62,167 bases of DNA from Myxococcota bacterium (GTDB lineage: Bacteria; Myxococcota_A; Polyangia; HGW-17), in the NCBI GenBank assembly GCA_018821305.1, contig JAHJMN010000173.1, positions 1 to 62,167 of the forward strand, in the 5' to 3' direction. Positions within the stretch are counted from its first letter, which is position 1. Every line of letters starts with the position of its first letter. The notes below the pieces were generated by a model. That model had not been told where the DNA came from, did no database searches, and worked only from the letters and a program-made list of their open reading frames with translations. The position numbers and the translations under genes are program-made. Positions 6,335-60,745 of this stretch are shown here, in pieces.

Positions 6335-7819
6335 ATGAAAAAATTTATCGTAATCGGAGCCGGTCTTGGTGGTATCAGCGCTGCCGTCAGTCTGAAAACT
6401 GAAGGTCATGATGTAGTAATTTTCGAAAAAAACAGCCACACCGGGGGCAGGCTTAATATTCACAGCGAAGAAGGTTTTTCATTTGATCTTGGCCCCTCAA
6501 TAATCATAATGCCAGAAATTTTCAGAGAGCTTTTCCGTAAGGCTGGTAAAAAACTTGAAAACTACATGACATTTGAAGAACTTAATCCGCAGTGGCGAAA
6601 CTTCTGGCCTGACGGCACAGTGTTAGACCTCCACTCTGAAATTTCCGCCATGGAAAAAGAACTCCGTCGTCTTGGCCCTGATGCCGGCGATGGTTTTTTC
6701 AATTACGTTGAATACTCCCGTAAATTATTCAACTATGCGGAAAAATCTTATTTCAAACCAGGAAATGATACTTTCACCTCGTTTGTCAAGAATCAAAAAT
6801 TGCTTGATATCGCAACTAAAACAGAGTTTTACCGTTCAATGCAATCAGGAGTGGACAAATTCGTAAAAAACCCATATCTGCGCGATATGCTTGGTTTTTT
6901 TATAAAGTATGTGGGTTCATCTTCCCATGATGCCCCGGGAGTATTAAATCTACTTCTATATTCACAACTTGAAGGTGGCCTCCAGTATGTAAAAGGCGGA
7001 CTGTATAATATGGCCAGAGGTTTTTCGAAACTACTGTCCGACATTGAAATTCCCGTTTTCCACAACTCAAAAGTCGTTGAGATAATCAGGCAAGGCGATC
7101 TGGTAAAAGGCGTTGTCCTTGAAAACGGTGAAAAGCATTTTGCCGATGCCGTGATTTCAAATCTTGAAATCATACCTGCTATGAAAACACTCCTTGGCAA
7201 TGATCCCAAACATGTTAAAAAACTTGATAAATTCCAGCCTGCATGCTCAGGACTTGTTATCCATCTTGGAGTGAAAGGCACTTATCCGCAACTTACGCAC
7301 CATAACTTCTTCTTTTCCAAATCAACGGCGGACCATTTTAAAACAATTTTTCATGACGGAAAACTACCATCAGATCCAACAACGTATCTTGTTTGTCCAA
7401 CGGTATCCGATAAATCAATTGCCCCGGAAGGTCACAGTATAATCAAGATTTTACCGCATGTTCCAGTATTGCCCGAAGATGGCTCCCTGCCTGATTATCG
7501 TGCTCTTGAAGAACGCGTTTACGACAAACTTGAAGAAATGGGACTTGTGGACCTTCGCAAACGCACAGTTTATAAAAATGTCCTCACCCCGGCGGATATC
7601 CATTCCCTTTACGGCTCAAATCGTGGAGCAATTTACGGCGTCGTAAGTGATCTTAAAATGAATCTCGGATTTAAAGCCCCACGTCGATCAACCATGTGCC
7701 GCAATCTTTATTTTACCGGTGGTTCAGTAAATCCCGGTCCGGGCACCCCCATGGTCACTCTGTGTGGCCAGATCCTTAGTGCTGAAATTATTAATGATAT
7801 AAATAAAGGAGAATTCTGA
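6335..7819 (+). CDS. CrtI-type FAD-dependent phytoene desaturase-like protein
   Basis: 494 residues from the ATG at 6335, preceded by GGAGAAGTAAG; a longer frame from 6296 has no ribosome site. The N-terminus carries the dinucleotide-binding fold (VIGAGLGGISAAVSL, residues 5-19, then a terminal acidic residue in VVIFEKN). The C-terminus has YFTGGSVNPGPGTPMVTLCGQ-like residues, the conserved FAD end of CrtI enzymes. The family desaturates or isomerises phytoene and related carotenoids at the membrane. The next gene encodes a second, divergent family member and overlaps by one base. Paired CrtI proteins are known in myxobacteria, where two desaturases act together. No crtB or crtE is in this window, so the exact substrate is open. 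Confidence 0.88.
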   Translation: MKKFIVIGAGLGGISAAVSLKTEGHDVVIFEKNSHTGGRLNIHSEEGFSFDLGPSIIIMPEIFRELFRKAGKKLENYMTFEELNPQWRNFWPDGTVLDLHSEISAMEKELRRLGPDAGDGFFNYVEYSRKLFNYAEKSYFKPGNDTFTSFVKNQKLLDIATKTEFYRSMQSGVDKFVKNPYLRDMLGFFIKYVGSSSHDAPGVLNLLLYSQLEGGLQYVKGGLYNMARGFSKLLSDIEIPVFHNSKVVEIIRQGDLVKGVVLENGEKHFADAVISNLEIIPAMKTLLGNDPKHVKKLDKFQPACSGLVIHLGVKGTYPQLTHHNFFFSKSTADHFKTIFHDGKLPSDPTTYLVCPTVSDKSIAPEGHSIIKILPHVPVLPEDGSLPDYRALEERVYDKLEEMGLVDLRKRTVYKNVLTPADIHSLYGSNRGAIYGVVSDLKMNLGFKAPRRSTMCRNLYFTGGSVNPGPGTPMVTLCGQILSAEIINDINKGEF

Positions 7820-9306
7820 TGAAAAAGAAATCTGTTGCTGTAATAGGAGCTGGCCCCGGTGGCCTGAGTGCTGCAATGATCCTTGCATCCAAGGGTTATG
7901 ACGTAAATGTTTATGAAAAAGAGGCCATTGTTGGCGGACGTAACGGGTACTTTCAACTGGGGAAGTATCGTTTTGACATAGGTCCTACATTCCTTATGAT
8001 GCGCAACGTTCTGGATGAAATTTTCGAAATAACAGGGCGAAACAGTGAAGATTATATGGAATTTACTGAACTTGATCCCATGTATCGTCTGGCTTTTGGC
8101 AACGGAAAAACGTTTTTTCCAACGCGAAACAAAGAAAGCATGAAGCAGCAGTTGGAATCCCTGTGGCCCGGTTCCTGGGACGGCTACGAAAGATACATGA
8201 AAAGGGAAGCTAAAAAATATGAGAAACTCATACCCTGTCTGCAGAAACCCTATGGAACCATTCGTGAAACACTGAATCCAAATCTGTTTCTAGCTACACC
8301 CTACCTCGACGGGCACATCAATCTGTTTAAATATCTTGGGAAATACTTCAAACACGACGATCTTAAAATTTCCTTTACATTTCAAGCTAAGTACCTTGGG
8401 ATGAGCCCATGGGAATGCCCTGCAACATTTTCTATAATCAGTTATCTCGAGCACGGTTTCGGTATCTGGCATGTTAAAGGCGGACTCAATCAAATGAGCC
8501 AGCAGATGGCAAAAGTCCTTGAAGAAGAAGGTGGAAAAGTCCATCTGAATACTCAAGTAAAAGAAATTATTGTTGAAAACGGCGCGGCAAAGGGACTTAT
8601 TCTCAGCGACGGTAGCGAAATCAGATCTGATTATGTTGTGATTAACGCTGATTTTGCCCACGCAATGAACAACCTGATTGCTCCGGAGCACAAACGTAAA
8701 TACACTCCATCTCACCTGTCGAACATGAAATACAGTTGCAGTACCTGGATGATGTACCTCGGAGTAGATAAATTATATGATGTCCCTCATCATAACATCA
8801 TTTTCAGCCCCGATTACAAAAAGAACGTGGATGAGATAACCAAGTCCATGACAATATCACCGGAACCGAGCATTTATATTCAGAATGCCGCCATCACGGA
8901 TCCGACATTAGCACCCAAAGGACACAGTACTATTTACATCCTGGTTCCGGCTCCGAATAATAAAAGCGGAATCAATTGGGCCGACTATGAATCTGATTTC
9001 AGAGAAAAAATCCTTGATATTGCAGAGCAACGGGGCGGACTTCCGGATCTAAGGCGGCATATTGTCACGGAAAAACTCTTCACGCCAAACGATTGGGAAG
9101 ATCAAATGGCGGTTTATCGTGGTGCTACTTTTAATCTGGCACACAATATAGGACAGATGCTTTATTTCCGCCCACATAACAAATTTGAAGAGTTCGAAAA
9201 CTGCTATCTCGTTGGAGGTGGAACTCACCCGGGAAGCGGTATCCCCACCATTCTGGAATCCGGAAAACTCAGCGCATCAATGATCCTCAAACGCGACTTC
9301 ACCTGA
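7819..9306 (+). CDS. Second CrtI-type phytoene desaturase-like protein
   Basis: 495 residues, nearly the same length as the upstream paralogue. The FAD-binding motif is VIGAGPGGLSAAMIL (residues 8-22), and the C-terminal signature is YLVGGGTHPGSGIPTILESG, closer to classical CrtI/CrtN than the upstream protein. The ATG overlaps the preceding stop (TGATG), so the two products are probably made in equal amounts. Two coupled CrtI-like proteins suggest sequential steps of one carotenoid pathway, or one desaturase plus one ketolase, cis-trans isomerase or neurosporene-stage enzyme; sequence alone does not decide. The last eight bases overlap the 3' end of the convergent lipoprotein gene. Confidence 0.88.
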   Translation: MKKKSVAVIGAGPGGLSAAMILASKGYDVNVYEKEAIVGGRNGYFQLGKYRFDIGPTFLMMRNVLDEIFEITGRNSEDYMEFTELDPMYRLAFGNGKTFFPTRNKESMKQQLESLWPGSWDGYERYMKREAKKYEKLIPCLQKPYGTIRETLNPNLFLATPYLDGHINLFKYLGKYFKHDDLKISFTFQAKYLGMSPWECPATFSIISYLEHGFGIWHVKGGLNQMSQQMAKVLEEEGGKVHLNTQVKEIIVENGAAKGLILSDGSEIRSDYVVINADFAHAMNNLIAPEHKRKYTPSHLSNMKYSCSTWMMYLGVDKLYDVPHHNIIFSPDYKKNVDEITKSMTISPEPSIYIQNAAITDPTLAPKGHSTIYILVPAPNNKSGINWADYESDFREKILDIAEQRGGLPDLRRHIVTEKLFTPNDWEDQMAVYRGATFNLAHNIGQMLYFRPHNKFEEFENCYLVGGGTHPGSGIPTILESGKLSASMILKRDFT

Positions 9307-9835
9307 TTGCTTTTACAAGTTTTTTAGTGCCCGCTGTTGATTTTCCCATTTCCCCAAAGTTTTTTTCTAATATTTTGTATTCATTACGTAATTCTATAAA
9401 TCGGTCAAGATTTCTGATATCCGGTGCCCAATCCCTGTTCTGAGCTATTTTCCTTACAACTTCCACCTGATCAGAAATATTCTGAATAATTTCTTTAAAA
9501 AACGTTATAAGCTGGCTGTAATCTTCGCCTTCGATAGTAGATGCATTGATTTCCTTCTGAAGTCTCTCCATCTGAATCAGCAGGAGTGAACATCTGCGGT
9601 TGAAATCAACTATCTTAACATCATCCAGAAAGTGAACGTTGTTTATAAGTTCTTTTAAATAATGGATAGCCGTTGAAATCTCTTTATGAAAAACTTTTAT
9701 AAATTCATTGGAGTTCTTATATGTGACTTTTTCCGCCGGCAAAGAAGGTTCGTTTGACTGAGTCTCCTCAGGTCTACTTTTCCCGCTGCAGGAGATGATA
9801 GATAGGAATAATAAAAATAAGATAATACTTTTCAT
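9299..9835 (-). CDS. Small lipoprotein of unknown function, helical
   Basis: 178 residues. The signal peptide MKSIILFLLFLSIISC ends in a lipobox with Cys16, so the mature protein is a predicted lipoprotein. The remainder is charged and looks mostly alpha-helical, with heptad-like Leu/Ile spacing between about residues 45 and 165 and no cysteine except the lipidation site and one at about 91. I do not recognise a family. It converges on the desaturase gene, overlapping it by eight bases, so it is an independent unit. Its promoter should lie in the AT-rich spacer at 9836-10111, where no gene, repeat or clear promoter could be identified. Confidence 0.7.
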   Translation of the reverse strand: MKSIILFLLFLSIISCSGKSRPEETQSNEPSLPAEKVTYKNSNEFIKVFHKEISTAIHYLKELINNVHFLDDVKIVDFNRRCSLLLIQMERLQKEINASTIEGEDYSQLITFFKEIIQNISDQVEVVRKIAQNRDWAPDIRNLDRFIELRNEYKILEKNFGEMGKSTAGTKKLVKAIR

Positions 9836-10111
9836 ACACGTTCCCTTTTAAACCGCTTTACAATAGCATATTTATCGACCTCCTACCTCTTCCTTTTTTT
9901 GCAAAAGACCATGCTTAGTTGATTTTATATAGTATTTCCTTTTCCTTTTTTTCCTATTGTAAGTCATCATACAAATAAATATTTTTCATTGCAATCGCCA
10001 CAAAGAGGAGTATATTACATTTTCTGATGGTCGGTGAAAACATTTTTTCGCAATGATTTCAACACACTTTTGAGACTACGCCCAGAAATTTCGGGGAAGG
10101 ACCAGTTTGAA

Positions 10112-11140
10112 ATGCGTTCATTTCTAGTAGTTCTAATAACTTCAATTTTATTTTTTTCATGCGATGACGATCCATCCACGTTGTGTGGGAACAGTTCCGT
10201 CGATTCAGGCGAAGAGTGCGATGGGGATGACTTAAGTGGCAAGTCATGCACTTCCCTTGACGGTTACAATTTCCGCGATGGCATCCTTCTTTGTAAAAGT
10301 GATTGTACTTTTGACACGACAGGCTGTATTGAAGCAGTCTGTGGAGATGGAGTTGCCGAGGGTATTGAAGCTTGCGATGGTAATGATTTTGCAGGGAAAT
10401 CATGCAGTGACTTTGGCTTTCTATCAGGAAATCTTGGATGCATTGACTGTGCTGTAGATACAACAGAGTGTTCTAATATATCTAATTGTGGTAATGACAA
10501 TATTGACGAAGATGAAGTATGTGACGGAAATAATCACAATAATAAGACTTGTGTAGATTTCGGTTATTCTTCAGGCTTTTTAATTTGCAGTACTGACTGT
10601 TCTGAATTTTTTCTTGGAAGTTGTCACAATAACGGTGGAACTTGCGGTGACGGTATATTAGATGATTTGGAGCAGTGCGATGGTTCCGAAGTCTGGCATT
10701 CCTGCACAGAAGCAGGTTTTACAGGAGGAGACGACCCCCAGTGCAACGTCAACTGCACTTATGATTACTCAACTTGTGAAGGGGATATTTGCGAATTAGC
10801 TGGCTTTTATAATGACGGTTTCTGCATGGGGTGCGAGTTTATGAACGGTCATGTTGACCCCGACTGTGCGACAGTTTGTCCGGTTGAAGATGGCATCTGT
10901 CGTTCAGTTTTTGTTAAAGAATACGGTACTTCCAGTTGCATTTATCAAACAGGAAGTGAAGATCCCGACTGTGGCACCTGCGGTGACGGAGTATGGAATA
11001 AATTCGGCGGAACCGGCACTATTCTTGAACAATGCGATGGAGATGATTTGGGCGATGTAACCTGTGAGGATCATTCCTATTCCGGTGGGATTCTTCGATG
11101 CAGTCCCAATTGCCGCTACGATTTCAGCGAATGCATCTGA
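10112..11140 (+). CDS. Lipoprotein made of Myxococcus-type Cys-rich repeats
   Basis: 342 residues from the ATG at 10112. This start is chosen because it begins the signal peptide MRSFLVVLITSILFFSC with lipobox Cys17 and follows GGGGAAGGA; the open frame extends back to 10034 without signal features. After Cys17 the protein is almost entirely Cys-rich repeats of the pattern 'CG(D/N)G..(D/E)..E.CDG.D..G.SC...G...G.L.C...C..D...C', about six copies. A variant between residues 230 and 290 has more cysteines. The fold is expected to be disulfide-stabilised and surface-exposed. Its role is unknown. It resembles the N-terminal part of the 446-2281 lipoprotein and the short repeat of the amidohydrolase at 45985. 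Confidence 0.82.
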   Translation: MRSFLVVLITSILFFSCDDDPSTLCGNSSVDSGEECDGDDLSGKSCTSLDGYNFRDGILLCKSDCTFDTTGCIEAVCGDGVAEGIEACDGNDFAGKSCSDFGFLSGNLGCIDCAVDTTECSNISNCGNDNIDEDEVCDGNNHNNKTCVDFGYSSGFLICSTDCSEFFLGSCHNNGGTCGDGILDDLEQCDGSEVWHSCTEAGFTGGDDPQCNVNCTYDYSTCEGDICELAGFYNDGFCMGCEFMNGHVDPDCATVCPVEDGICRSVFVKEYGTSSCIYQTGSEDPDCGTCGDGVWNKFGGTGTILEQCDGDDLGDVTCEDHSYSGGILRCSPNCRYDFSECI

Positions 11141-39573: not shown

Positions 39574-39617
39574 GTCATTTGGGAATAAAGATAATTAACT
39601 GTTTAAGGAGCATCATT

Positions 39618-40637
39618 ATGAAGTCAACTGTTCTATCAACTATAACCGCGATAATTCTTCTGTCAGCAGGGCCAGTTTCCGCTTATGAAGTCACTGATAA
39701 GCCACATGACCAACAATCTGACCATCAAAAAGAGCAAATTAAAAAATGGAGAAAAGTTAAAGGTTCGTTGTATAAAAAACTTATGAAAGAGCAGCAAAAA
39801 GGAAATTGCGTTTTCAGCACCAGCCCCCTCTCCCATCAAGAAAAAAGATCTGATGTCATTATGGATAGTATTGATATTCGAGATATCACAACAATGGAAA
39901 TAGGCCGAAATAAATGGAAAGCAGCAAAGACGCTCTATATCAGATGCCATTTTTATCCTGGCCGAAGAGTTTATAAATATGATTTCAATGTTCGAATTGA
40001 TGTGGATGGAAGGCAAGCCTCGGGAATGTCCGTACCCCGCAGTAAATATAAAAATGGAAGCATAGTGTTTACTCTAACTCCAATTGCAATTAAAACCCTT
40101 GGAAATAAAGCCTTAACCGGTGCTGAAGTAATGTTCAATATAACTCAACGCGACGGCGGCGTTGCGAAAAATAGTGTTTCCAATTGCCTCAAAGGTTGGT
40201 GTGAAATGAAAACCGGTGGATGGTTTGCAGTTGGCAAATTCCGTTTCACAGGAATGGATCGCAATGGTATAACCAAATCTGCAAAAGAAAGATTTGCCGA
40301 CAAATCTTCAAAACGTAGAGTAAGACCAGTTCCAGTCAAGCAGGCAAATTGCAATACCTATATAAGTGGTTATGATGCGAAAATTTATAAATTCGTATGT
40401 CCTTCAAATTGCAGAGTTACTGGAGCAACAACGCTAAAAGGTACAGACGAATACAGCAAATATACATCAGTGTGTCTTGCAGCAGTACATGCTGGAGTTC
40501 TTAAAAAAGGTCAAGGCGGCGAAGTTACAATTCAGGTGAATCGTGGTCGTTACAGACAATATACTGGAAGTAAAAGAAACGGATTAACTTCAACATCCGA
40601 TGGTACCAATGGTGAATCCTTTACATTTGTAAAATAG
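39618..40637 (+). CDS. Exported protein with a C-terminal LCCL domain
   Basis: 339 residues from the ATG at 39618, which has AAGGAG upstream and begins the signal peptide MKSTVLSTITAIILLSAGPVSA; the open frame reaches back to 39579. The middle (about 80-230) looks beta-rich, and I do not recognise it. Residues about 245-339 fit the LCCL domain: 'CPSNC..TGATTLKGTDEYSKYTSVCLAAVHAGVLKKGQGGEVTIQVNRG' followed by 'YTGSKRNGLTSTSDG...SFTFVK', with the conserved Cys, AAVHAG and NG residues. LCCL domains occur in eukaryotic cochlin and Limulus factor C, and in some bacterial secreted proteins, where they may bind ligands such as lipopolysaccharide. A secreted binding role here is an inference. Confidence 0.8.
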   Translation: MKSTVLSTITAIILLSAGPVSAYEVTDKPHDQQSDHQKEQIKKWRKVKGSLYKKLMKEQQKGNCVFSTSPLSHQEKRSDVIMDSIDIRDITTMEIGRNKWKAAKTLYIRCHFYPGRRVYKYDFNVRIDVDGRQASGMSVPRSKYKNGSIVFTLTPIAIKTLGNKALTGAEVMFNITQRDGGVAKNSVSNCLKGWCEMKTGGWFAVGKFRFTGMDRNGITKSAKERFADKSSKRRVRPVPVKQANCNTYISGYDAKIYKFVCPSNCRVTGATTLKGTDEYSKYTSVCLAAVHAGVLKKGQGGEVTIQVNRGRYRQYTGSKRNGLTSTSDGTNGESFTFVK

Positions 40638-48337: not shown

Positions 48338-51178
48338 CTATCTTCCGGTTTTGTGTCTTACGCCCATGTTACGGGGATCTTTTTGGGGGTTCTTGGGGTT
48401 TTTCTTGGGAGTATTGGCATTTCCAGCTTTAACACAGCGGCCACCACGATCGATTGTACCGTTCGGGCATTCACAGCGATCGCCTTTTTTTACTTTGCCG
48501 TTTTTGCATACGAGGGGTTTTACACAGCGGCCGTTTTCGACCTTCTGACCAGCGGGGCAAACACAACGGTTGCCAGCTTTAATCATACCATTTTTGCACT
48601 GAACAGGCTTCATGCAGATCTGACCCTTCTGTTCCATACCAGCGGGGCATTTGCATTTGTTGCCGACTTTTACCATGCCGTTTTTGCATACGAGGGGTTT
48701 TACACAGCGGCCGTTTTCGACCTTCTGACCAGCGGGGCATGCGCATTTATTACCAACTTTTACCATGCCGTTTTTGCACTGAACAGGCTTCATGCACATC
48801 TGACCCTTCTGTTCCATACCAGCGGGGCATTTGCATTTGTTGCCGACTTTTACCATGCCGTTTTTGCATACGAGGGGTTTTTCACAGCGGCCGTTCATTT
48901 CGACCATGCCAGCGGCGCATGCGCATTTGTTGCCTTTTTTAACCATGCCTTTGGGGCACATAAGGGGTTTTTCACAGCGGCCGCGTTTTTCGATCATACC
49001 CATGGGGCATTTGCATTTATTACCAACTTTTACCATACCGTTCATACAGCGAACGGGTTTTACACACTTTTTACCCAACTGTTCCATGCCAGCGGGACAT
49101 GCGCAGGTGTTGTTCGCCTGACGAACCATACCGTTGGTGCATCTTGCGGGTTTTTCACAACGACCATTCATTTCGATCATGCCAGCGGCGCATGCGCATT
49201 TGTTGCCTTTTTTAACCATGCCTTTGGGGCACATAAGGGGTTTTTCACAGCGGCCACGTTTTTCGATCATACCCATGGGGCATTTGCATTTATTACCAGC
49301 TTTTACCATGCCGTTCATACAGCGAAGTGGTTTAACACAACGATTACCCTGCTGTTCCATGCCAGCGGGACAAGCACAGGTGTTGTTGATGAGGCGAACC
49401 ATTCCATTGCGGCAAACAACGGGTTTAATACAACTTCCGTTGATGAGAGTTTGTGTTCTTGCACATACACATTTGCCTCTTACAAGTTTTCCACCGATAC
49501 AACGAGGAGCTGTTTCGATTCTGCGGATTACGCATCTGCGAACGGTAGCGTCATATACTTTGCCAGCAGGACATGTAACGGGTTTGAAGGGATCGTATTT
49601 TGGGCGAATTTTAACGCATCTGTTAAGAACAGCGTCATAACGGGTATCAACGGAACACTTGGGTCTGTGAACTTCTACAACCCTTTTAACGCAGCGGTTA
49701 GCTTTGCCGTTCCAGTGAGTTCCAGCAGCGCACTGACAGTGACCACCAGCATTAATCATATTTCCGGGGCAAACGAGCTTAGAAACACAACGTTTTGCGT
49801 TGAAATCATAATGTTTTCCAGCGGGGCATTTGTAAGCACTGACACAGCGGTCAGCGCGATAATCGTATTTCATACCCATGGGGCAGGAAAGAACACGACG
49901 ACACTGACGCTGTGATGCGTTCCAGAATGTTCCAACCGGACATACGCATTTGTTGTTTGAGAGCATCATGTTACCGGGGCAACGGAGAGCGCTGACACAA
50001 CGTTTTCCAGCAGCAGACCAGATTTCGCCAGCGGGACATGCGCATTTGTTGTTTTTCCAGATAGCGCCACCGGGGCATGTAATCTCACGTACTTTACATT
50101 TGTTGAATCTGTAACTCCAGAGAGTTCCAGCGGGACATGCGCAGCGGCCATTTTGCCATACAGCACCACCGGTACAACGGTAGGGTCTGTTGATACATCT
50201 GCCTGCAGCGTAGTAGGTGCCGGAAGGACAAGTGCATTTGTTTCCGGTCATAATCATGTTACCGGGACATTTAAATTTAGCAGCGCAAGCACGACCGGTC
50301 CAATGAGTTCCCGAAGGACAACGGCATACGCCATTGATAAGTCTTGTATTAGCCGGGCATTTTGGAAGTGGACGAGTGCAGTAGTTGGAGGATGAATTCC
50401 AGTATGTGCCCTTCGGACATACGCATTTGTTTCCTCTTAACATTGTACCGCGGGTACAAACGGGGATACGTTTATTAACGCAACGTCTGGCAGCTCTATT
50501 CCAATATGTATTTGCGGGGCAAGCACAAACGGATCCGTTCCATACTGTTCCTCTGGTACAAGCAGGACGCGTTGCAGTAGAAAGACACCATCTGGCCTTT
50601 GTATCCCAGTATTTTCCATAAGCACATGCGCAGCGGGTACCATTCCAGGCACTGCCGTTAGTACAGAGTCTGGGAATTAAAGTGGCTCTTGTAACGCATC
50701 TGGAAGAGAAGCGGCTCCACAGTGTTCCTGGAGGGCAAATGCATCTTCCTTTATATTTATATGATCCACCGGGACAATATGCATAGTTCGGAGGAACGAT
50801 CTTCACATAATCGATCTGCGGAGGAAGGTAATCATCAGGAATAGTAGTTGTTGTAACAACTGTATCCTGAGGAGGCTCAACTACGGTAACAGTTTCTTCT
50901 CCAGCAGGGGGAGCTATATCTGTTTCAACAACAACCTGTTCAGGCTGAGCGGGAGGTTCCGGAAGTTTGACTTCAATCACAACATCCTGCTGAATAATTT
51001 CAGGCTGAACTTCTTCGGGTTTGGGTGGTTCAGGCACCTGGATCTCCTGTGGAGTCTCAACCTGACCCTGACCCTGGGGATCTGTTCCCTGCTGATTTAC
51101 CGGCTGTGGACCTGGACAACCGGAAAACAGAAGACTCATTGCGAATAACGCCACAATAAAACTCAATTTTAATTTCAT
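48338..51178 (-). CDS. Lipoprotein with about 26 tandem Cys-rich units
   Basis: 946 residues. The signal peptide ends SLLFSGC (Cys21). A Pro/Glu/Val-rich stalk (about 25-125) leads to about 26 units of 19-38 residues with the pattern 'C..GM.K.GNKC.CPAG....GRC.KP', each with three to four cysteines, so every unit should be disulfide-bonded. The first 15 units vary; the last 11 are near-identical. Units 22-23 and 24-25 repeat at 180 bp in the DNA, and units 16-18 and 19-21 at 273 bp, which points to recent duplication. The tail is basic (NTPKKNPKNPQKD). A surface fibre or adhesin is plausible. A ribosome site AAGGAG precedes the ATG. Confidence 0.85.
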   Translation of the reverse strand: MKLKLSFIVALFAMSLLFSGCPGPQPVNQQGTDPQGQGQVETPQEIQVPEPPKPEEVQPEIIQQDVVIEVKLPEPPAQPEQVVVETDIAPPAGEETVTVVEPPQDTVVTTTTIPDDYLPPQIDYVKIVPPNYAYCPGGSYKYKGRCICPPGTLWSRFSSRCVTRATLIPRLCTNGSAWNGTRCACAYGKYWDTKARWCLSTATRPACTRGTVWNGSVCACPANTYWNRAARRCVNKRIPVCTRGTMLRGNKCVCPKGTYWNSSSNYCTRPLPKCPANTRLINGVCRCPSGTHWTGRACAAKFKCPGNMIMTGNKCTCPSGTYYAAGRCINRPYRCTGGAVWQNGRCACPAGTLWSYRFNKCKVREITCPGGAIWKNNKCACPAGEIWSAAGKRCVSALRCPGNMMLSNNKCVCPVGTFWNASQRQCRRVLSCPMGMKYDYRADRCVSAYKCPAGKHYDFNAKRCVSKLVCPGNMINAGGHCQCAAGTHWNGKANRCVKRVVEVHRPKCSVDTRYDAVLNRCVKIRPKYDPFKPVTCPAGKVYDATVRRCVIRRIETAPRCIGGKLVRGKCVCARTQTLINGSCIKPVVCRNGMVRLINNTCACPAGMEQQGNRCVKPLRCMNGMVKAGNKCKCPMGMIEKRGRCEKPLMCPKGMVKKGNKCACAAGMIEMNGRCEKPARCTNGMVRQANNTCACPAGMEQLGKKCVKPVRCMNGMVKVGNKCKCPMGMIEKRGRCEKPLMCPKGMVKKGNKCACAAGMVEMNGRCEKPLVCKNGMVKVGNKCKCPAGMEQKGQMCMKPVQCKNGMVKVGNKCACPAGQKVENGRCVKPLVCKNGMVKVGNKCKCPAGMEQKGQICMKPVQCKNGMIKAGNRCVCPAGQKVENGRCVKPLVCKNGKVKKGDRCECPNGTIDRGGRCVKAGNANTPKKNPKNPQKDPRNMGVRHKTGR
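48497..48856 (-). repeat. Tandem 180-bp coding repeat inside the Cys-rich gene
   Basis: A block that starts GCCGTTTTTGCATACGAGG on the plus strand occurs at 48497 and 48677, and its beginning recurs at 48857, an exact 180-bp (60-codon) spacing with very few differences. The high DNA identity suggests a recent duplication. Confidence 0.85.
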
Positions 51179-57410: not shown

Positions 57411-58538
57411 ATGCTTGATTTAAAAAAACTCATACCAGGCTACAGTTTCTGGACCGGCAACGGAACACCGGTTACTATTACTCAACTCAGTGATCAACTT
57501 TCTACTCTCGGGTATTCTTTCACTGTAAGTAAGAACTATATAAAAAATCCAAGTTATGACTGCATTATGAGTGCTGATGGTATGCCATTAGTTTTATTAG
57601 GCTTTCACCGTTCAGACAACATGCCGGGAATGGTTAAAAATGGTTTCGGTGACGTAAAAAAAGATATCGTCAGTCAGTTCCACTATGACCTGCTTTTTAC
57701 TCCTCAGGCGAGTCTTTTGCCATCCATTGCCTCGTTAAATGTCCTTGCCAGTCTGTTCCGCTTAATTGATGGAATAGCTCTGGACCTCAAAGCCCAGCGT
57801 ATTCTTACTGAAAATAATATTAAAGCCATGCTGGGAAAACAGAAATTCGGGGCGGAAGACTTTGTCAGTATTCACTACATTGATTCTGCTGATGGTCGGG
57901 GCTGGGTCCACACCCATGGAATGGAAAAATTTGGGTTAAACAATCTTGAGACTTACTCCCTCAAAAAAGAGAATGTTCTTGATTGTATACAATTATTCAA
58001 TGATCTTACTTCGCAATTTATGTCGGGAAATCCTGCAATCCCGAATACACCCATTAATTTAAAAAACGGTGTAATAACAATAATGTATTCATACGATGTG
58101 AGGCCGTACCTCACCCGTGAAAACGAAATCCTGATCAAAGAACACATGGAAGATTTTTTCAGTGTAATTGATTTTGATACTGTTGGTGATATCTCTTCGG
58201 CTATTGATGGGTATTTTCTTGAAAAACGACTTGGCAGCAATGTTATCCGAACTGTCCCTGGCCCTGACACCATCCCCCTTGAGACACTATTAAAGCTGCC
58301 AGCCATGGGTTTCACTGTTTACAGTCGAGGTACTACAAATGGGGAAGATGATCACGTCTTTACCGAGCTGGTAATTGGAAAAGATGGTATGGTCCACTGG
58401 GAAGTCCTCATTGACAGCATCTTCAGTCCCGCCCTTGAAAAGGGAAATCAAATAGCCACCGACTCCTTTGAAATTGATTTTATTATCGTTTATAAGGATG
58501 GCAAAATGATAAATCCCACTGATATTCAGGTTAAATGA
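57411..58538 (+). CDS. Cytoplasmic protein of unknown function, partner of the kinase-like membrane protein
   Basis: 375 residues with no signal peptide or membrane segment. I cannot assign a family. A stretch 'DGRGWVHTHGMEKFGLNNLE' at about 163-182 resembles a motif I recall from several DUFs of bacterial cytoplasmic proteins (W.HTHG...FG...LE), possibly a nucleotide- or metal-binding site; this is a memory-based impression. AAGGTTG precedes the ATG. The last four bases overlap the ATG of the membrane-kinase gene (ATGA), so the two are translationally coupled and likely work together. An uncertain promoter, TTGACT near 57358, lies upstream. Confidence 0.7.
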   Translation: MLDLKKLIPGYSFWTGNGTPVTITQLSDQLSTLGYSFTVSKNYIKNPSYDCIMSADGMPLVLLGFHRSDNMPGMVKNGFGDVKKDIVSQFHYDLLFTPQASLLPSIASLNVLASLFRLIDGIALDLKAQRILTENNIKAMLGKQKFGAEDFVSIHYIDSADGRGWVHTHGMEKFGLNNLETYSLKKENVLDCIQLFNDLTSQFMSGNPAIPNTPINLKNGVITIMYSYDVRPYLTRENEILIKEHMEDFFSVIDFDTVGDISSAIDGYFLEKRLGSNVIRTVPGPDTIPLETLLKLPAMGFTVYSRGTTNGEDDHVFTELVIGKDGMVHWEVLIDSIFSPALEKGNQIATDSFEIDFIIVYKDGKMINPTDIQVK

Positions 58539-60745
58539 AAAGTGAATTTATTACTGACGAACGGGACCCTTTTGCCCTTTTCGCCGGTTTTTTATTCCTC
58601 TCGACACTGGCAATTTACTTCCTTATAAATACTAACGATTGGGTCTATCCCATTGAATCAATACATAAAACAAATTGGCTTTTCGCATCGGGATCTGTTA
58701 AGAATGCTCTGTTATCAGCGTTTCCAATCTGGAATCTGGCCCATTTTGCGGATTCTTTAATAAAATTTCCAGTTATCCTGATCATTAATTTTATTTTCGC
58801 CATTACCCTCATTGGCATTATAAATTCAGAACTGAAATCTTTTAAAATCAGTTATATTTTTCTTTTCTGTGCTGGAATCTTTTTCATCAGACTTCCGCAT
58901 TTAGTAATTTCCGGCTCACCGGTAATTTTATCTGTACTTCTTCTCACTTCTCTGAATAAGGCATGGGAACAAAGTTCACTGGTTTTCCTGCCCCTGGCTT
59001 TTTTCTCCGTCTTATGGTCTCCGTTGTTTCTTCTTATCCTGCCATTTGCCATATTTGACGATAATCACAGCCATTTTCACAGGTTCCTTCTCTTTACTGT
59101 CATGGTATTTCCAATTTTCATTCTGAGCCAGTATTTGATTCTTACTTTATCGAGTCCTTTTCCAGCCATTTTACGAAGTTTTCTACGTCCTGAGCCTTCT
59201 TCAGGAATTTATTCCTTACTTTTAATATTCCTTGGCATTGCTCTACTTTTATTCAGAGAAACCTCTTCTCGCAAAGCTCAATTTCTGGGTATATTTGCCC
59301 TTTGCGGTGCAGTCATCCACCCATTTTCCACCTCAATTCTGGCGATTGCAACAATCAGTTCATTACCGTTTCTGCTTAAGATGTTTATTGAAACCCGAGG
59401 GAATCTCGTTCTTTACTCATCGTTATTAATGATAGTTTTTACCTTTGTGTCTGGAGTGAACATCCTTTCATTAAAAAAATCCAGCCAATACCTTTCCGGA
59501 TGCCGGAAAGCTGCGTTGGTTTTGCAAAAACAAACAACCACGCCCTGTTTTAAAAACTCTGAGGTCCTGAAATGGTTTTACAACAAAAAAACAAACATTA
59601 ATGCTCCTTGCGCTTTTCTTATTGCAGGCACCCCTGCAAAACCTGAGAGTAACTGGATTAGAACAGCGGATTTTGTAATTGAAGGAAAGGTTTTCCGGAT
59701 TTATTCACGGGATCCTGAGAAAGCGCACTCACTTGCAGGGGCACTGCAGGGATTTTTCGACATAAAAGGCATTAAAATAAAAATTGAATACTCCCCTGCC
59801 CTTCCGGATGAATTATCTGCTCCGCGAAAGGATATTCTGACTCCTGACATCCCCGTTTACGAACAGAACATGGTGTGCAAAGAGATCAATTCCGGGTACT
59901 TTTCAGGTCTTAATATGGGAGCGGTCTTAGATATACTTAGTTATGAACGATTAAGCAGGATCTGGCTTGCCCAAACCGGCGGGCGAACCGTTAAATTCAG
60001 GTTCAATGTAAATGCACCCAAAAACACAGGAGTGGATTTTTTGGGTGTTTTCAAGCCAGCCCATCGAAAAATGGATTTTGCAAACTGGAAAGGTGAGATT
60101 GCTGCATTTCGACTTGCAAAACTTCTGGGAATTAACAACATACCACCCGCCACAGTTCGTCAGGTTTCCACAAGCACACTTAGAAATATTGTATCAAATC
60201 ATCAAGATCAGAAACTTCAGGAAATATTTAAAAAACATGTATTAACGGAAGAATCCTGGATAAATGGTGCTGCAATTGTCTGGATAAGTGATGCTACAAA
60301 CTGGGAGCCTGATGAAAATATAATGAGTCTTTTATCTTCGCCATCTGCTTCCGAAAGTACTGATCTGAAACTACTCAGACAACTTAGTGATATGATATTA
60401 ATAGATTTTTTGACAAACAATTATGACCGGTTTTCCGGAGGCAATCTCCTCAGAGATGGTGGAGATAATTTATATTTTATTGATAATGGAGCAGCCTTCA
60501 CTCCGGAGCAGGAATGGAAAAGAAACTGGAGATTCTATCTTCTTAAAAAGATTACAGTTCTGAACACAAAAACCTGGTCCAATTTAATAAAACTCAAGAA
60601 ATCTGACATTAATAATTGTCTGGGGGCTCTTTTAAATCGTCGTCAGTTTGAAGGATTGATTATGCGGATCAATGAACTGGCTGCTTATGGTTCTTCTCTC
60701 AAACTTCGCTGGGGAGACAGAATGTTTTTTCCCGAAAAAGATTAA
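58535..60745 (+). CDS. Polytopic membrane protein with C-terminal Fam20C-like kinase domain
   Basis: 736 residues. About ten membrane segments occupy residues 12-315. A Cys-containing soluble region (about 320-495) follows. Residues about 495-735 carry a kinase-like set: Lys507 in GVFKPA, Glu521 in 'WKGEIAAFRLAKLLG', Asp631 and Asn637 in 'LTNNYDRFSGGN', and Asp650 in YFIDNGAAF. The order and spacing fit the Fam20C/HipA-like atypical kinases ('N.DR', 'DNG'), in which Asp acts in catalysis and the later Asp binds metal. Fam20C phosphorylates secreted proteins in animals. Which side of the membrane the domain lies on is not resolved. It could also be a degenerate or lipid kinase. Translationally coupled to the 57411 gene. 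Confidence 0.75.
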   Translation: MKSEFITDERDPFALFAGFLFLSTLAIYFLINTNDWVYPIESIHKTNWLFASGSVKNALLSAFPIWNLAHFADSLIKFPVILIINFIFAITLIGIINSELKSFKISYIFLFCAGIFFIRLPHLVISGSPVILSVLLLTSLNKAWEQSSLVFLPLAFFSVLWSPLFLLILPFAIFDDNHSHFHRFLLFTVMVFPIFILSQYLILTLSSPFPAILRSFLRPEPSSGIYSLLLIFLGIALLLFRETSSRKAQFLGIFALCGAVIHPFSTSILAIATISSLPFLLKMFIETRGNLVLYSSLLMIVFTFVSGVNILSLKKSSQYLSGCRKAALVLQKQTTTPCFKNSEVLKWFYNKKTNINAPCAFLIAGTPAKPESNWIRTADFVIEGKVFRIYSRDPEKAHSLAGALQGFFDIKGIKIKIEYSPALPDELSAPRKDILTPDIPVYEQNMVCKEINSGYFSGLNMGAVLDILSYERLSRIWLAQTGGRTVKFRFNVNAPKNTGVDFLGVFKPAHRKMDFANWKGEIAAFRLAKLLGINNIPPATVRQVSTSTLRNIVSNHQDQKLQEIFKKHVLTEESWINGAAIVWISDATNWEPDENIMSLLSSPSASESTDLKLLRQLSDMILIDFLTNNYDRFSGGNLLRDGGDNLYFIDNGAAFTPEQEWKRNWRFYLLKKITVLNTKTWSNLIKLKKSDINNCLGALLNRRQFEGLIMRINELAAYGSSLKLRWGDRMFFPEKD

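Follow-up and report, generated by a model that had tools for sequence, protein, structure and literature searches.

The question raised by this locus is what a kinase-like domain does at the end of a polytopic membrane protein, and what part is played by the gene that overlaps its start. The two genes lie on the plus strand of the window, the whole 62,167-nucleotide stretch of Myxococcota DNA analyzed here, and encode proteins of 375 (P0001) and 736 residues (P0002). Mononucleotide shuffles of the region gave no open frame longer than 178 codons, so both reading frames are well above chance expectation. They lie exactly where the earlier note had placed them, and the stop of P0001 overlaps the start of P0002, an arrangement that suggests translational coupling. 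The observation of an overlapping gene pair, whose second product joins a membrane part to a kinase part, is confirmed. Table 1 gives the coordinates of the features discussed below.

Table 1 Features of the P0001/P0002 locus, in window coordinates.
Feature	Position	Strand	Support
P0001, DUF4026-type protein	57411..58538	+	Pfam DUF4026_C match, close homologues, AlphaFold
SuFu-like segment (tentative), P0001 residues 149-263, with WxHxHG motif (W165, H167, H169, G170)	57855..58199	+	VIA
ATGA stop/start overlap of P0001 and P0002	58535..58538	+	Sequence; same ATGA in congeneric G001, ATGGCTGA in G009
P0002, polytopic membrane protein ending in a Fam20-like kinase domain	58535..60745	+	ORF, AlphaFold, fold comparison
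Membrane domain, P0002 residues ~13-313, 9-10 hydrophobic helices	58571..59473	+	Hydropathy; low AlphaFold confidence
Small alpha/beta domain linking the membrane part to the kinase part, P0002 residues 361-419	59615..59791	+	AlphaFold secondary structure, pLDDT ~60-71
Fam20-like kinase domain (predicted), P0002 residues 448-736	59876..60742	+	AlphaFold; PDB fold matches
C448, candidate disulfide with C695	59876..59878	+	Invariant in 7/7 subclade members
K507, beta3 Lys, aligned with Fam20C K285 region	60053..60055	+	K 45, R 4, gap 5 among 54 homologues
E521, alphaC Glu, aligned with Fam20C E311	60095..60097	+	52/52 ungapped homologues; Fam20C alignment
D631, catalytic Asp of N-x-D-R	60425..60427	+	54/54 homologues
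N637, candidate second metal ligand	60443..60445	+	50/54 homologues
D650, metal-binding Asp of DNG motif	60482..60484	+	54/54 homologues
C695, candidate disulfide with C448	60617..60619	+	Invariant in 7/7 subclade members

Structural comparison of the predicted C-terminal domain with known kinases provides the first part of the answer. In the AlphaFold model of P0002, built on a 20-sequence alignment, residues 450-736 have pLDDT values mostly above 90 (mean for the whole chain 66.8, with low confidence in the membrane part). A Foldseek search of the PDB ranks Fam20C, Fam20A and a hydra Fam20 first (E from 3.9e-9 to 2.8e-6), followed by PI4KII. VIA scores the Fam20 entries at Z 20.8-21.8 over 260-276 residues and PI4KII at 17.5-18.4; actin-fragmin kinase follows with 12.3, and HipA, together with a related bacterial kinase complex, lies at 10.3-12.0. 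A sequence profile of the seven closest homologues returned significant E values for Fam20A/B/C chains only (1.6e-9 to 5.1e-7), with PI4K chains next at an E of 1.5. P0002 itself scores 20.5 bits against the Pfam Fam20C family (PF06702), below the cut-off of 26.8, and its congeneric orthologue passes this cut-off with 36.9 bits; a protein above it is present in 42 of the 193 genomes of the class and in none of 14 control genomes. Neither HipA_C nor PI3_PI4_kinase matched P0002 at E 1, the former giving a weak match in one of 20 homologues and the latter in seven of them. Sequence similarity is also detectable to the SCO1664 family (NCBIfam TIGR03843; residues 519-717, E 3e-9), yet P0002 is not an equivalog of it, since its score of 36.6 bits lies below the 172.4-bit cut-off. 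Where the earlier note had proposed a kinase of the Fam20C/HipA type, the kinase fold and its Fam20C-like character hold on fold, profile and invariant residues (Z about 21-22), but HipA, which has the broad fold in common, is far more distant (Z about 11-12).

The active site agrees with this placement up to a point. Like the secretory pathway kinases Fam20A/B/C, P0002 has the NxDR and DNG motifs, the alphaC Glu and the beta3 Lys; its catalytic-type residues are K507, E521, N629-x-D631-R632, N637 and D650-N651-G. The earlier note had read the Lys, Glu, N-DR and DNG residues correctly, with the right numbering of Asp631 and Asp650, and it had made its assignment depend on the conservation of these two aspartates. 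Both are invariant, together with D624, R632 and G635, across 54 distinct homologues, in which the residue following D650 is Asn, His or Gln. Human Fam20C relies on D458, D478 and the K285/E311 pair, and in addition on the Fam20-specific E306, which coordinates Mn, is indispensable in Fam20C and is Gln in Fam20A, an inactive protein (PMC4421793). Counterparts of the first four are present in P0002 as D631, D650, K507 and E521. Position E306, however, aligns in the HMM alignment with A516 and is never Glu, nor any acidic residue, in the aligned homologues. In ordinary kinases a catalytic-loop Asn serves as a metal ligand, and by analogy the conserved N637, at D+6, may stand in for the ligand that is missing relative to Fam20C. 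Because E306 is absent from every aligned homologue and the conserved N637 is found instead, we term P0002 Fam20-like and not a Fam20 member; since this metal ligand is absent, activity cannot be assumed. The alignments thus indicate a bacterial family that has the Fam20 fold and the core catalytic residues in common with Fam20C, but not its metal site. P0002 further differs from Fam20 in that it scores below the Pfam cut-off, is fused to a polytopic membrane part and comes from a bacterium.

On which side of the membrane the kinase domain resides is best approached through its relatives. P0002 has matches in 48 of 59 related genomes, and strong matches occur in 41 of the 284 genomes of a phylum-wide sample, 39 of these 41 belonging to the class of the window; where close relatives have named records, these are metagenome assemblies labeled Myxococcota, Polyangiaceae or Deltaproteobacteria. 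By a home-made hydropathy and lipobox test, with 98 ORFs of the same regions as controls, an N-terminal lipobox, signal-like or anchor segment is found in 43 of the 51 non-polytopic homologues, compared with 40 of the 98 controls, and several of the eight export-negative homologues fall just under the threshold. The closest subclade comprises seven sequences including P0002 (support 98/94). The cysteines C448 and C695 are common to all its members and occur together in none of the 13 other homologues of the main alignment; in some other branches another pair of cysteines is seen, spaced by about 63 residues. The nearest sisters of P0002, the kinases of G002, G004, G006 and G007, are lipoprotein-like. 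Since the homologues mostly carry export or anchor signals and the subclade has this Cys pair, the kinase domain of P0002 is probably extracytoplasmic, as Fam20 kinases and most P0002 homologues apparently are. A second Fam20-like kinase, a solo one, is encoded in the window's own genome (L044 8977-10008, contig C112); the gene after it overlaps it at the start and encodes a HEAT-repeat protein. Two longer proteins, L086 (926 aa) and L087 (740 aa), one of them from Lujinxingia vulgaris TMQ2, match the kinase profile weakly in their C-terminal part.

The membrane part itself gives a less direct answer. Hydropathy predicts nine helices, or ten at a looser cut, which bears out the "about ten" of the earlier note, and the domain has no match in Pfam or NCBIfam. 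A GT-C glycosyltransferase identity, suggested by the layout, was considered and dropped, given the lack of a Pfam or NCBIfam match and a model that is too weak. With nine or ten helices and an ambiguous positive-inside charge balance, the side of the membrane is not settled by topology. The membrane domain of the G009 kinase showed no significant homology match to that of P0002, a result compatible with independent fusions of the two.

Conservation of the pair is real and narrow. Among the 59 relatives searched, six have a P0001-like gene; the genome of the window is among those listed. In four of the seven subclade genomes (G000, G001, G002 and G009) this gene stands directly upstream of the subclade kinase, with overlapping frames in G000, G001 and G009. 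The pairing that the earlier note wished to see surveyed is therefore conserved, but only within part of the kinase's own subclade. G004, G006 and G007, whose kinases are lipoprotein-like, have no P0001-like gene, and in the subclade genomes without it the gene before the kinase, where checked, encodes a TPR protein whose start is lipoprotein-like. The DUF4026-like gene adjoining the kinase in G002 (L036 1429-2067) contains an in-frame TGA and may for this reason be decaying or misassembled. Downstream of the kinase, G002, G004 and G006 carry genes for an NtrC-type response regulator and an ABC1-family kinase (L040 and L041 at about 6740-10844, L043 14009-18213), a conserved neighborhood that the window lacks; the domain assignments were confirmed for G002 and G004.

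The earlier note had left the first protein unassigned, a description that is now superseded. P0001 passes the curated cut-off of Pfam DUF4026_C (PF22789; 28.7 bits, cut-off 27), a family without known function that is also matched by five of five close homologues. Its AlphaFold model has a mean pLDDT of 78.8, and neither a signal peptide nor a transmembrane helix is evident. In the family profile search DUF4026_C alone was matched, with no HTH or HipB match. Neither a PDB sequence search with the P0001 profile (no significant match) nor Foldseek with the model (no match at E 0.001) returned a relative. In VIA, residues 149-263 weakly resemble the Neisseria SuFu homologue 3k5j (Z 7.1) and human SUFU entries (Z 5.6-6.3), all below the caution level of Z 8, and the WxHxHG motif of this segment is at least 90% conserved in 15 P0001 homologues. 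Two P0001 relatives match DUF2314 weakly. SuFu-like and DUF2314 domains are catalogued as immunity-type domains of polymorphic toxin systems (PMC3482391), a resemblance that we treat as a lead only. What distinguishes P0001 from other DUF4026 proteins is its pairing with a Fam20-like kinase: no kinase match was found in the flanks examined of other DUF4026 loci in the phylum. The phylum holds many diverse DUF4026-type proteins (L051-L079), some with a lipoprotein-like N-terminus and a DUF2314-like C-terminus. No mention of DUF4026 was found in the openly licensed literature, where absence is weak evidence.

Taking these observations together, we favor, by a modest measure, an extracytoplasmic Fam20-like kinase that is anchored in the inner membrane, serves envelope or secreted substrates and is modulated by a cytosolic DUF4026 protein. 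The membrane domain of P0002 would keep the kinase domain in the periplasm, at the outer face of the inner membrane, where it would phosphorylate envelope or secreted proteins, or glycans; phosphorylation of envelope substrates, which the earlier note had raised, remains plausible. D631 would be the catalytic base, D650 and N637 would bind the metal, and K507 and E521 would form the ion pair. P0001, produced by coupled translation, would remain in the cytoplasm and modulate P0002 through its assembly, its activity, or restraint of the kinase before membrane insertion. Several points weigh against this reading. The topology of P0002 leaves the side unsettled; a kinase in the periplasm needs a source of nucleotide beyond the cytoplasm, and none is evident; a kinase domain in the cytosol would be the simpler match for a cytosolic partner; the lipoprotein-like kinases of G004, G006 and G007 occur in genomes that lack a P0001-like gene; and the Glu306 metal ligand of Fam20C is missing. 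The kinase domain could instead face the cytoplasm, with the membrane part sensing an envelope signal and P0001 acting as cytosolic regulator or substrate; the fused form and its exported relatives would in that case lie on opposite sides of the membrane. ATP is cytoplasmic, P0001 has no evident export signal while its gene overlaps P0002, and ten helices with the N-terminus inside would leave the C-terminus of P0002 inside as well. We nevertheless hold this arrangement to be somewhat unlikely, as the homologues are mostly exported, the Cys pair is common to lipoprotein-like members and the four nearest sisters are themselves lipoprotein-like.

The nature of the activity admits further alternatives. 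PI4KII lipid kinases belong to the same fold group and come second to Fam20 in fold and sequence, seven of the 20 homologues match the PI3_PI4_kinase family weakly, and a kinase domain located in a membrane protein could act on a membrane lipid from its anchor. Fam20 is nevertheless better by both fold and profile, P0002 itself does not match PI3_PI4_kinase at E 1, and its relatives mostly have no polytopic domain, which makes a lipid kinase improbable. We give as little credence to a pseudokinase, that is, a module with a binding or regulatory role, for which Fam20A would be the parallel. The E306 position is non-acidic throughout the aligned bacterial family, as it is in inactive Fam20A, where it is Gln (PMC4421793), but full conservation of the catalytic and DNG aspartates and near-complete conservation of N637 would be unexpected had catalysis been lost. 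The toxin-like regulator mentioned in the earlier note is not supported. For P0002 as a HipA-type toxin and P0001 as its antitoxin one may cite the small overlapping gene that precedes the kinase, the HipA folds among the structural matches, and the listing of DUF2314, weakly matched by two P0001 relatives, as an immunity domain (PMC3482391). Yet Fam20 is far closer (Z about 22 compared with about 11-12), P0001 matches DUF4026_C and not an HTH, so that P0002 has no HipB-like partner, and the homologous kinases are mostly exported and solo. On fold ranking and partner identity we reject this pairing as very improbable.

A further bacterial protein for comparison is CotH, a spore coat kinase of Bacillus that resembles Fam20C. 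Unlike P0002 it is not polytopic, and the spore coat is where it acts. CotH is a Ser/Thr kinase that targets CotB, a structural protein of the surface (PMC7821199). According to a 2021 review, Fam20 is conserved throughout animals, and no discussion of bacterial relatives was found there (PMC7948968); a 2022 kinome survey places FAM20 among the eukaryotic- or Metazoa-specific clusters (PMC9758233). No description of a myxobacterial Fam20 family was found in the openly licensed literature, which is weak evidence of absence. Because bacterial proteins exceed the Pfam Fam20C cut-off, the existence of a Fam20-like family in bacteria is in itself no novelty; the unusual features are the fusion of the kinase to a polytopic membrane domain and the pairing with a DUF4026 protein.

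The family is a common one in a single bacterial class, with a predicted Fam20 fold, invariant catalytic residues and mostly exported members, and P0002 may be a bacterial counterpart of the animal secretory pathway kinases. Were it active, Fam20-type phosphorylation of extracytoplasmic targets would exist in bacteria, the question of how ATP reaches an extracytoplasmic kinase would be raised, and the origin of the animal Fam20 metal site could be put to the test. A broader proposal, which we consider unlikely as a whole, is that Myxococcota-type bacteria operate an extracytoplasmic phosphorylation system based on exported Fam20-like kinases. This operon would be its membrane-integrated form, in which a polytopic protein both anchors and controls (or feeds) a periplasmic kinase and is partnered by a cytosolic DUF4026 protein. 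An older metal site, with the catalytic-loop Asn, would persist in the bacterial family, and the Glu306 site of animal Fam20 would derive from it. The P0001/P0002 operon offers a defined two-gene unit for testing.

Two other genes of the window encode proteins of note. LCCL domains are mostly known from eukaryotes, and a protein with such a domain is encoded at 39579-40637. On the minus strand, positions 48338-51178 encode a Cys-rich protein of 946 aa with many repeats, which matches the EB module and DUF5874.
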